DNA of 64,000 bases from Synergistaceae bacterium. GTDB taxonomy: Bacteria > Synergistota > Synergistia > Synergistales > Aminobacteriaceae. Of the stretch, positions 3,005 through 8,358 are shown in pieces. Under the pieces are notes generated by a model that was given only the letters and a program-made list of their open reading frames with translations, did not search any database and was not told the origin of the DNA. How positions within the stretch are numbered: the stretch's first letter is position 1; every line of letters starts with the position of its first letter. The DNA lies in NCBI GenBank assembly GCA_017448795.1, contig JAFSKV010000020.1, positions 1 to 64,000 of the forward strand, read 5' to 3'. A program made the translations under genes and the position numbers.

Positions 3005-3619
3005 TCACAATGCGCGCTCAATTATCCGTATCATTCCGCCGCGGCGGTCATACCCTGTCTCGTACATGTCCTCAAGGCTGAACCATTGATACTCGCCGTA
3101 AGTTACTGTTAGGACGCGTAGCCCATTGTCGGACTCGTCATAGCCTGCGAGGTTGAACCAGTGCCACTGGAAATCGTCGAGCTTGGGATTCTTGTGATGG
3201 AGGAGGAGAAAGGGGACGGGAAGATTTCTGTCGAGCTGGCTCACTATTGCCCCCGCGAAATCGTCATAGGGTATGTTGCCTGAGATGCCTTCGAGAATGA
3301 GGCAGTTGTTGTTCACGCTGGCCATGTAGTCATAGAAGCCGCAAATGTAGGTCTCTAGGAAGTCGATTCCGTGATAGCGTGGTGAGAGGTAGGGCTTCAT
3401 GATCGATGCGAACCTGACGAAATCGGAGCGGGTGAGTCTTTCCGGGTTGAAGGGGTAGAGCTGGCGGTATTCGTCCCTGCGTGAGAGGAATATCGATGTG
3501 TCGCAGGCAGTAACGGCGGCGCATCCTCCCATGTTCATATCCCATTCGGGGAGCCAGTCCTGATTTCCGCCGGGAGCGTCGTCAATCGTGAAGTAGCCGA
3601 GAATTTTTCTGCGTGTCAA
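3005..3619 (-). CDS. C39-like cysteine-peptidase-fold protein
   Basis: A 204-residue cytosolic protein with no signal peptide or membrane segment. The GGCAAVTACD motif near residue 33 and the WHWFNLAGYDE stretch near residue 156 look like the Cys and His regions of papain-fold C39-type domains, though overall similarity is weak. The start is TTG at 3617-3619, eight bases after GAAGGTG. There is no ABC transporter or bacteriocin precursor nearby, so a leader-peptidase role is not supported. The function is unknown; whether it is an active peptidase or an inactive fold is open. Confidence 0.55.
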   Translation of the reverse strand: MTRRKILGYFTIDDAPGGNQDWLPEWDMNMGGCAAVTACDTSIFLSRRDEYRQLYPFNPERLTRSDFVRFASIMKPYLSPRYHGIDFLETYICGFYDYMASVNNNCLILEGISGNIPYDDFAGAIVSQLDRNLPVPFLLLHHKNPKLDDFQWHWFNLAGYDESDNGLRVLTVTYGEYQWFSLEDMYETGYDRRGGMIRIIERAL

Positions 3620-3721: not shown

Positions 3722-5819
3722 TCATTGCAGTAAGCTCTTGTAGTTTTCCTGCGTTACTTTGACATACGGAATCCAGATATATTTTCCGTCCGTGATTCTG
3801 TAGCCTATGCTTGATTCCGTTACACGCTCGCCATCAGCCGCGATCACAGCAATCCTAACAGCCGCTATACCCTGATTGTCAGCGTCATTAAGCACCGTTC
3901 CAATCATCTCGCCTCTGGCTATTGAGTTTATAGCCGGAGCTGTTGCATCAATTCCGACAACGGGAATATATCTGCTTGGATTGCCAGTGTTATAGCCGCT
4001 GTCTTGCAGAGCCTTCAAAGCTCCCAATGCCATATCATCATTATTGGCTAGTACAGCCTCTATTCTGTTGACTCCAAATTGCCGAATGAATCCAAGCATT
4101 TTGTTATTTGCTTGTATTGCGCTCCAATTCGCCGACTCGCTCCCAAGCTCCGAAATTCTCAGGCCGTAATCTTTCATTGCCTTCTTTGCGTATTCAGTAC
4201 GTAGTATAGCGTCTTGATGGCCATTTTCGCCCCTGAGCATTACGAACTGTATTACACCGTCATGATTTTTATCGGCCTCCGGGTGTTTCATGAAGTACTC
4301 AGCAATTATTTCACCCTGTTTAATTCCAGCCTCCTCAGCTTTTGCGCCAACATACCAGACTTTATTGTTAGGATTTCAAGACTTCGGCGTAAGGCTCACG
4401 GTTGATGAATATTATCGGGATGTCCTCGAATTTAGCCTTCTCCGTGAGAAATTTTGCGGCTGTACGGTCGACAAGGTTAATAATTAATGCGTTTGCACCC
4501 TTTGAGATAAAAGCATCCGCTTGGTCATTCTGTAACTGCTGGCGGTTCTGGCTATCTACAATTTCGAGTTCACCGCCAAGCCTTTCTATCTCATAGCGCA
4601 TTGCGTTGCGTATCCCGGCCATGAAGACATCACCAAACCTGTATATGCACGCTCCTACAAGGGCATCAGTCCTGTAACGGAACTCCCGTTTGATTCCCGT
4701 CTGCTGTGTACTTTCATTCCCGAAAAGCCCACGCAATTCCCCCGGCAGACTCGCAACATCAATCCTTCCCCGTTTCATCTGTGCGAGAACAGCCCCGCTA
4801 ATCTCAGTCTCACGCCCTGAACTGACATTCCCATACTCCACGCACGTGATGGCCTCGTCCTTATCCCCAAGCGCGAAATACACTATCCCCGCAAAGAGAT
4901 TGCTCCCCCAGTCATAAGCCGGCGTATAATCGCGCACAACTTCTACAAGCCTCCGAATTTCCGCAAGACTTTCAGCCGATTGCACTCCCTTTTCCGCAAG
5001 CTCACGTATCCTGTACTTTGTCGCCTCAAGTTTGTACGGGTCATAATTCAGCACTGGCCGCCACACCTCATTGAACCTGCTGAAACACTTTCTGCATTCC
5101 GCCTCATTCCCCGCGCCCTTTGCGGCATATGCACGGAAGAACCAATACGGCGGGTACACCCGGAATTTCCGCTCGATGAATCTCAGACGGCCAAGACGGT
5201 TTGACGGGTCAGCCTCATTCATGGCCGAGAGAAATTCCCGGACGTTCTCCTGCGTCAGCCTGTACTCATTCGGCAGATGATACTTGCTGAGTAATGACCA
5301 CGACGAATTGAGCAGTGTTGCCTGAAGTTTGTTGCAGGCGTTGAGTTCGTCTTTGGTGAGCTGCCACGAGCCATTGCTGATTTCACGGCGGATTTCTTCC
5401 TTCGAGGCCTCGTAGTCATAGTACCCTGCCCCGACCGATGACGCTCCTGACACGAACAGACTCCCAATCCAGCCCCATAACGAATCGTTTTCGGGCGCGC
5501 GTACGTTCTCGAAACCGTGAGACATTGCGCGGTAATATGCTTCCTGCTCGCGGCGTTTGTAGCTGTCTTTGAGCCTCATCAAGTCTTCCTGCCTGAGTCT
5601 TTTGCCGTTGATGAAGCCCAGAAGCTCATCGTACAAGCTCTTCATTTCCGGGTCGCTCTCAATGTTGCCGATTGCGAGTCGGTTGATGATGTTCTCGTAC
5701 TCCCATTCGAGGACTGTCCTGTCTTGGGTTGTGAGTATCCTGTGGACTGAGACTATGGCCATGTTCAGCGCGAGCATCGTGTGAAGAGGATCGTAAGCCT
5801 CCGCAAATTTCTTAGGCAT
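3722..5819 (-). pseudogene. Helical-repeat/galactose-binding-protein (MglB-like) fusion, broken by a frameshift
   Basis: Two adjacent frames, 5819-4368 and the frame ending at 3722, together encode one protein of roughly 690 residues. Residues 1-370 are helical with TPR-like stretches, and there is no signal peptide. From about residue 375 the sequence follows E. coli galactose-binding protein MglB, including INLVD, the calcium-loop-like DKNHDGVIQF, GENGHQDAILR, ANNDDMALG, VVGIDA and VLNDADNQ. These cover the aspartate, histidine, arginine and asparagine residues that contact sugar in MglB. After EVLKS a TAA stops frame 0; skipping one base (AAT CCT AAC AAT AAA) restores the MglB-like frame NPNNKVWYVGAK. 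Either a real frameshift mutation or a sequence error. A periplasmic-type binding domain in a protein without an export signal suggests an intracellular sugar sensor; that is inference. Confidence 0.75.
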
Positions 5820-5864
5820 GAGACAGCTTCCTTTCTTCTCGGAATTTTTACGGGATGCGAAAAA

Positions 5865-5897
5865 TTATACAGTGAATAATTCCGGCTGTGCTAAAAT
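5865..5897. promoter_or_regulatory. Divergent promoter region of rpmG and the sugar-binding fusion gene
   Basis: The minus-strand -10 is TATAAT at 5870-5865 (context ACTGTATAATT). The plus-strand -10 is TAAAAT at 5892-5897, about 40 bases before the rpmG start. The -35 elements are weak, so the calls rest on the -10 hexamers and position. Confidence 0.4.
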
Positions 5898-5937
5898 ATT
5901 CCCCGTTTTCACATTTCATCAGGAGGCACAATTTCAC

Positions 5938-7514: not shown

Positions 7515-8219
7515 ATGAAGAGAAGCAAACGCTACAGGGAAGCCGCCGCCAAAATCGAGGAAGGAAAACTTTACGGACTTCGTGAGGCTGTGGAGCTGTT
7601 CAAGGCAATATCGACAGCGAAATTCAACGAGAGCATAGAAGTGCATGTACGCTTAGGGATTGACCCGCGCCACGCAGACCAGCAGGTAAGAAGCACGGTG
7701 TCATTGCCACACGGGACTGGCGTAACGAAGAGAGTCCTAGTCATCACTCAGGGCGAGAAGGTTAAGGAAGCACAGGACGCAGGGGCTGACATTGTCGGCG
7801 GTGATGACGTAGTCCAGCAGATTCAGGGCGGGTTCATGGATTTCGACGCTGTAATCGCCACGCCTGACATGATGAAGTCAGTAGGCCGTCTCGGAAAGGT
7901 ACTCGGACCTAGGGGACTCATGCCCAGCGCAAAAACCGGCACGGTAACATTCGAGCTTGCCGCCGCCGTCAAGGAGATCAAGGCAGGACGTGTTGAGTTC
8001 CGCGCAGACAAGACAGGAATCACCCACAACGCCGCCGGAAAACGCGATTTCAGCGCAGATGACCTGTACGACAACGTGAAGGCACTGCTTCAGGCGATAT
8101 ACCGCGCAAGACCCGCATCCGTGAAGGGTACGTACGTCCGCAGTATCGCCATCGCTCCCACAATGGGGCCCGGAATCGCGGTTGACCCGTCATTAGCGCA
8201 GAAAGAACTAGCACTGTAA
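7515..8219 (+). CDS. rplA: 50S ribosomal protein L1
   Basis: A 234-residue L1 of the ribosomal L1 stalk, with the signature [20 protein letters not shown] near residues 122-145. The RBS GGAGGT lies six bases before the ATG. In many bacteria L1 represses the L11 operon by binding its mRNA; no clear L1 target was identified here. Confidence 0.97.
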
Positions 8220-8358
8220 CATATAGATTCCGCAGACAGCAGGGGCGCATCGACGCTTAATCATCCTGCCCAGGAGTGAGAGAATGTGAGCATCAACGCT
8301 CCTCCTGTGTCATCATGGGGGGAGCTTGTTTTATGGTGAAGGAGGTGAAAATCACAAC
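8220..8358 (+). ncRNA. L10 leader of the rplJL operon with attenuator hairpin
   Basis: The 139-base stretch between rplA and rplJ matches the position and general form of ribosomal protein L10 leaders, in which L10(L12)4 binds the mRNA to repress rplJL. Within it GCTCCTCC at 8298-8305 pairs with GGGGGAGC at 8318-8325 and is followed by TTGTTTT, an intrinsic terminator before the rplJ ribosome-binding site. The L10-binding kink-turn was not modelled, so autoregulation is inferred. Confidence 0.7.
8298..8332 (+). terminator. Attenuator terminator inside the L10 leader
   Basis: An eight-pair stem (one T-G pair) with a 12-base loop and TTGTTTT tail, 27 bases before the rplJ start. Confidence 0.7.

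Follow-up and report, generated by a model that had tools for sequence, protein, structure and literature searches.

MglB, the galactose/glucose-binding protein (GGBP; NF011924; PDB 1GLG, 8FXU), is the closest described counterpart of the C-terminal part of the gene analyzed here: the two belong to the same domain family and share the sugar-contact and calcium residues, whereas the MglB-like domain of our gene is located behind a helical domain and outside an mgl operon, lacks a signal peptide and is interrupted by a frameshift. A link between an exported repeat protein and a solute-binding protein is known from the TPR-protein-associated TRAP transporters (TPATs) of Treponema pallidum, in which, as described for TatT/TatP, an exported periplasmic TPR-type protein holds a solute-binding protein (PMC5812351). 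TatT and TatP, however, are two separate lipoproteins that work with TRAP membrane subunits, and the binding protein is of the DctP type, whereas our gene would specify a single chain with an ABC-type (CUT2-type) domain that belongs to the Peripla_BP_4/MglB type. Periplasmic Sel1-like repeat proteins, such as IltA/PA3978 from P. aeruginosa, act by binding envelope proteins or enzymes (PMC10746161). These are likewise helical-repeat proteins, and many relatives of our gene end in Sel1 repeats (e.g., L064 and L004); in the gene itself, no Sel1 repeats score above the threshold. Finally, one lobe of the ribose-binding protein can fold alone (PMC9815098; PDB 7PU4, 7QSQ), which resembles the seeming single lobe of one relative described below, except that the ribose-binding protein lobes are not fused to a helical domain. 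A literature search on TPR/binding-protein fusions and on Sel1 families of Synergistetes, in which few subscription papers were covered, yielded no description of such proteins.

The gene is encoded on the minus strand of the window, i.e., the entire analyzed stretch of 64,000 nucleotides from a Synergistaceae bacterium. Its first frame, ORF1 (5819 to 4368, 483 aa, with the TAA stop at 4370-4368), encompasses a predicted α-solenoid of about 370 residues that appears TPR-like (the N-domain, residues 9-370, positions 4710-5795) and the beginning of a galactose-binding domain of the MglB type, namely the first part of its N-lobe (residues 383-483, positions 4371-4673). The rest of the latter domain, including the crossing helices, the C-lobe and the C-terminus, is encoded in a second frame that runs from about 4375 to the stop at 3722-3724 (positions 3722-4375). 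The Pfam profile Peripla_BP_4 matches residues 391-475 of ORF1 (profile positions 4-89, E = 1.6e-12) and resumes without overlap in the second frame (positions 93-257, E = 6e-32), and the two pieces similarly cover positions 24-124 and 126-327 of the NCBIfam MglB profile, which implies that only the reading frame has been lost. Comparison with the genome's own MglB1 places one extra base, followed by the premature stop, within approximately 4368-4380. Thus, the fusion of a helical-repeat region with an MglB-like domain proposed in a sequence-only reading of this DNA is real, and it is broken by one frameshift, as stated there.

ORF1 starts with MPKKFAEA (5796-5819), and its in-frame ATG is preceded by an AAGGA-type ribosome site near 5828-5834. 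A TATAAT hexamer at 5864-5869, read from the sequence and not listed by a generic promoter scan, lies in the region (5820-5937) that, according to the sequence and the alignment, the gene shares with the divergent rpmG. On the other side, the gene is adjoined by an unnamed 204-aa ORF and pbp1A. The 204-aa ORF (3005-3619, minus strand) has no Pfam or NCBIfam match and occupies the same place in the related genome G056 (L221:1470-2084). Elsewhere in the window (8212-8340, plus strand), there is an ordinary ribosomal protein L10 leader RNA (Rfam RF00557, 64.7 bits).

The conservation of the MglB-like domain was assessed by alignment to E. coli GGBP (1GLG numbering), using the established list of ten sugar-contacting residues of this protein. 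All ten residues are kept across the two frames: D14, F16 and N91 in the first frame, and H152, D154, R158, W183, N211, D236 and N256 in the second one. The calcium loop DKNHDGVIQ and E205 are retained as well, so that the second half of the domain is indeed as well conserved in its ligand-contacting residues as originally noted. The PDB matches are to MglB/GGBP, the best one being 8FXU, for the second half (E = 4e-77), and lie well outside what chance would give. The two pieces score 86.6 and 170.3 bits against NF011924, the MglB equivalog with a cut-off of 420 bits, and neither the mglAC neighbours nor the signal peptide that are typical of MglB are present at this gene. A complete mglB-mglB-mglA-mglC set is found on another contig of the same genome, so that uptake does not depend on the fused copy. 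In that set (L114:6273-8412, contig C43), two tandem MglB paralogues precede mglA and mglC; most of the genomes in this genus have two MglB-like genes next to each other. The fused domain is about 70% identical to the genome's own MglB1 (77% in the N-lobe vs 66% in the C-lobe) and has evolved fast, with a branch length of 0.60 vs 0.047 for MglB1. No gene-conversion tracts between the two were detected, the nucleotide identity being 0.50-0.78 throughout. Given that both frames are conserved and adjacent, one could imagine that programmed frameshifting joins them; but the site occurs in no intact relative, the context of the TAA is unlike the prfB +1 signal, and a second in-frame TAA follows shortly downstream, which makes this mechanism scarcely credible.

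The N-terminal part (residues 1-370) belongs to no named Pfam or NCBIfam family, and the NCBIfam matches of the gene are all of the sugar-binding type and confined to its tail. An AlphaFold2 model built from 48 relatives (pLDDT 88, pTM 0.88) is all-helical and appears TPR-like, in agreement with the original assessment of this region. The Pfam TPR_2 profile gives 21.4 bits for this gene, below the gathering threshold of 27, and is matched by 35 of the 48 family members at E-values up to 0.1. The nearest solved structures are TPR proteins, e.g., MamA (Z = 9.7 over 164 residues, a middling value of the kind that is common for helical repeats), and Foldseek, with the best E-value of 0.015, returned generic TPR matches only; such matches of a predicted model would be indicative of the fold type alone. 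We defined the N-domain family from an alignment (A1; profile length 352), which the window gene matches almost completely (positions 5-351, E = 4.1e-152). A profile search detected this domain in 69 of the 183 Synergistales genomes, distributed over 12 of the 59 genera, with one or two copies per genome in other genera and up to eight in the genus of the window genome, which itself has six matches. The family records come from uncultured Synergistales, Synergistaceae and Fretibacterium assemblies, many of these from ruminants, and from Fretibacterium fastidiosum. For the N-domain of the window gene, dN/dS is 0.11 vs the related genome G047 and 0.085 vs G056 (range 0.085-0.17).

Signal peptides, which we called by eye and by the presence of a hydrophobic run rather than with a trained predictor, immediately precede the conserved YDPxHTMLALNMA motif in most family members, and nearly all members from other genera start with one; judging by these N-termini, the family appears to be mostly exported. 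A single clade, with the N-terminus M-x-E-YDPLLTMSALNM, has no signal peptide, and its tails are ankyrin repeats, DUF4357 or Sel1 repeats. To this clade belong L004, L005, L083, L023 and L085-L088, some of them with a membrane segment in the middle of the protein, and these loci probably represent a cytosolic branch of the family.

In the tree, the window gene falls outside this clade and groups with its syntenic orthologues from G047 (98% identity over 89 codons) and G056 (80%), within an exported clade. Both orthologues adjoin rpmG, a tRNA gene and secE, and carry the signal peptides MKKSIAAIILMLTVSPRACA and MMKKILSAIVLVFVISQGAFA, respectively. The absence of a signal peptide from the window copy, already noted in the sequence-only reading, holds: its corresponding start, MPKKFAEA, lacks the hydrophobic core, only 44 bases separate TATAAT from the ATG, and no hydrophobic frame is found upstream of the latter. 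The stretch from TATAAT to the conserved YDP could not accommodate a signal peptide together with a leader. Because the orthologues have a signal peptide and there is no room for one upstream, its absence in the window copy is best explained by loss after the split from G047 (dS = 0.11 over the 89 codons). The 5' tract of the gene is more divergent than the remainder, and no donor for it was found in the same genome. The missing signal peptide thus appears to be a second lesion that is limited to the window copy. As for the proposal of a periplasmic-type sensor that is kept inside the cell as a distinct architecture, the observation named beforehand as speaking against it was a signal peptide in intact relatives. 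A search for intact homologues shows that these exist with signal peptides: the genes from G047 and G056, as well as an MglB-lobe fusion from G018, all start with one. We therefore consider the cytosolic-sensor reading unlikely.

A version of that reading would treat the frameshift as a sequence or assembly error, with the gene encoding an intact fusion that lacks the signal peptide and works in the cytoplasm. The second half of the domain, in which all contacts are kept and there are no stops, the retained ribosome site and the very existence of the clade without signal peptides, with its ankyrin, DUF4357 and Sel1 tails, are all compatible with this possibility. Nevertheless, we regard it as rather unlikely given that a signal peptide is present in the nearest orthologue, that the window copy belongs to an exported clade, that no other sugar-binding fusion without a signal peptide is found in 43 genomes of the genus, and that the frameshift site is not a long homopolymer.

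Within the genus, the C-terminal tails of the family include Sel1 repeats, ankyrin repeats, DUF4357-like ends, unnamed tails and sugar-binding domains, and in three genomes the tail is a sugar-binding domain of an ABC transporter; no sugar-binding fusions were seen among the inspected members from other genera. At the same locus in G056, the helical domain is joined to a different, complete sugar-binding protein. In this case, contig C1 stops inside the sugar-binding domain, and contig C35 opens with the same 97 bases, completes the domain and continues into an unnamed 204/205-aa ORF and pbp1A, as downstream of the window gene; from the synteny and the 97-base overlap, we infer a single gene (L061:4131-5744 with L221:2-709; L222 and L220). 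The native copy of the fused binding protein in G056 runs from C16 to C8 into its own ABC operon, and the fused and native versions are 86% and 90% identical in two parts, which suggests either a young fused module or one that recombination has refreshed. The G056 assembly breaks at the stretch common to the fused and native copies. In G047, the contig ends at residue 97 of the gene; the remainder was not found, and there is no third MglB-like copy in that genome.

Could the fusion in the window be an assembly chimera of unrelated helical and MglB genes? The genome is assembled in 86 contigs. However, the region upstream of the gene is single-copy, both flanks are syntenic with G056, and G018 encodes an analogous fusion. 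Furthermore, with only about 70% identity between the fused MglB and MglB1 of the same genome, the assembler had no repeat that could mislead it. We consider a chimera highly improbable.

The G018 gene (L071:3096-4778) is open and consists of a signal peptide, the N-domain and the MglB N-lobe only: the C-lobe is absent, the crossing segment is kept, and the protein seems to contain a natural single-lobe binding domain, for which a model built from an alignment (A2) predicts alternating strands and helices with moderate confidence. The MglB lobes of the window gene and G018 are sisters (95/89) within the MglB1 clade, unlike their N-domains, which are not. Provisionally, given the few columns and long branches in these alignments, either the MglB module moved or long branches attract each other.

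The G018 protein also offers a parallel for a functional truncated product in the window, where the 483-aa protein, a helical domain with a partial N-lobe, would belong to a fusion that is shedding its C-lobe. Isolated lobes of the ribose-binding protein are stable (PMC9815098), and the C-lobe of the window gene is the more diverged of the two relative to MglB1. Yet the truncated product in the window would be without the N-lobe's crossing helices, which G018 keeps, a C-lobe that had long been dispensable would not keep its contacts, and the signal peptide is lost, so that this scenario appears improbable.

More generally, we tentatively propose that, in Synergistaceae associated with ruminants, an exported helical scaffold repeatedly acquires binding proteins from the cell's own sugar transporters as exchangeable C-terminal modules, which might be refreshed by recombination, as in G056, and in some cases trimmed to a single lobe, as in G018; we hold this broader scenario to be possible rather than probable.

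With respect to the age of the damage, the second frame contains no stop in 217 codons, for which the probability under random substitution is about 0.06 after 10% neutral change and 0.007 after 20%. The lack of stops, together with the retention of all contacts at 66% identity, indicates that the frame was lost recently or that the assembly is in error. Because the domain was constrained until shortly before, the lesions of the window gene appear to be recent, as the sequence-only reading also concluded. Although the frameshift rests on one assembly, we infer that it is biological rather than a sequence error. Internal stops occur at nine other places of the family, in seven genomes, suggesting that birth and decay are common among the helical proteins. 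In G051 and G045, the stop sits at a glutamate codon of intact relatives and the frame is unchanged, a pattern that does not resemble an indel error. Several paralogues within the helical family, including L062:2175-3620, L065:1944-3215, L066, L119 and others, have in-frame nonsense codons or are in pieces.

Taken together, we believe that the window gene probably belongs to a modular Synergistales family of exported proteins and was damaged recently, and that what looks like a cytosolic sugar sensor is most likely a gene in decay. The intact form would consist of a Sec signal peptide, a TPR-like helical domain of about 350 residues and an exchangeable C-terminal module, and would be released into the cell envelope. 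In the lineage of the window genome, the module would be a copy of MglB, the galactose/glucose-binding protein, taken over from the set of transporters that the genus possesses. The helical domain might dock on a partner, with the sugar-binding domain opening and closing in response to sugar; the outcome would be recruitment that depends on sugar, or local capture within the envelope, and not uptake by an ABC transporter. In the present assembly, the window copy has lost the core of its signal peptide, after the split from its nearest relative, and one frameshift cuts the sugar-binding domain, so that the product would be no more than a cytosolic helical protein of 483 aa that ends in half a lobe. 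Against decay, the ribosome site and the in-frame ATG remain at the 5' end, and the gene may therefore still be expressed.

The window gene itself serves mainly as a warning, in that a cytosolic sensor was deduced from one damaged copy. The part worth following is the module-swapping family, with its exchange of transporter binding domains. Unnamed in both Pfam and NCBIfam, this family occurs in more than a third of the Synergistales genomes that we searched and has multiplied in one ruminant-associated genus. Its C-terminal modules, entire binding proteins of transporters among them, are swapped, and a single fixed locus is one of the places where this happens. Provided that the sugar-binding fusions are functional, they would show in compact form how parts of transporters are turned into receptors of the envelope, and if these modules are indeed captured and refreshed as outlined above, the family would represent a system of interchangeable envelope receptors.
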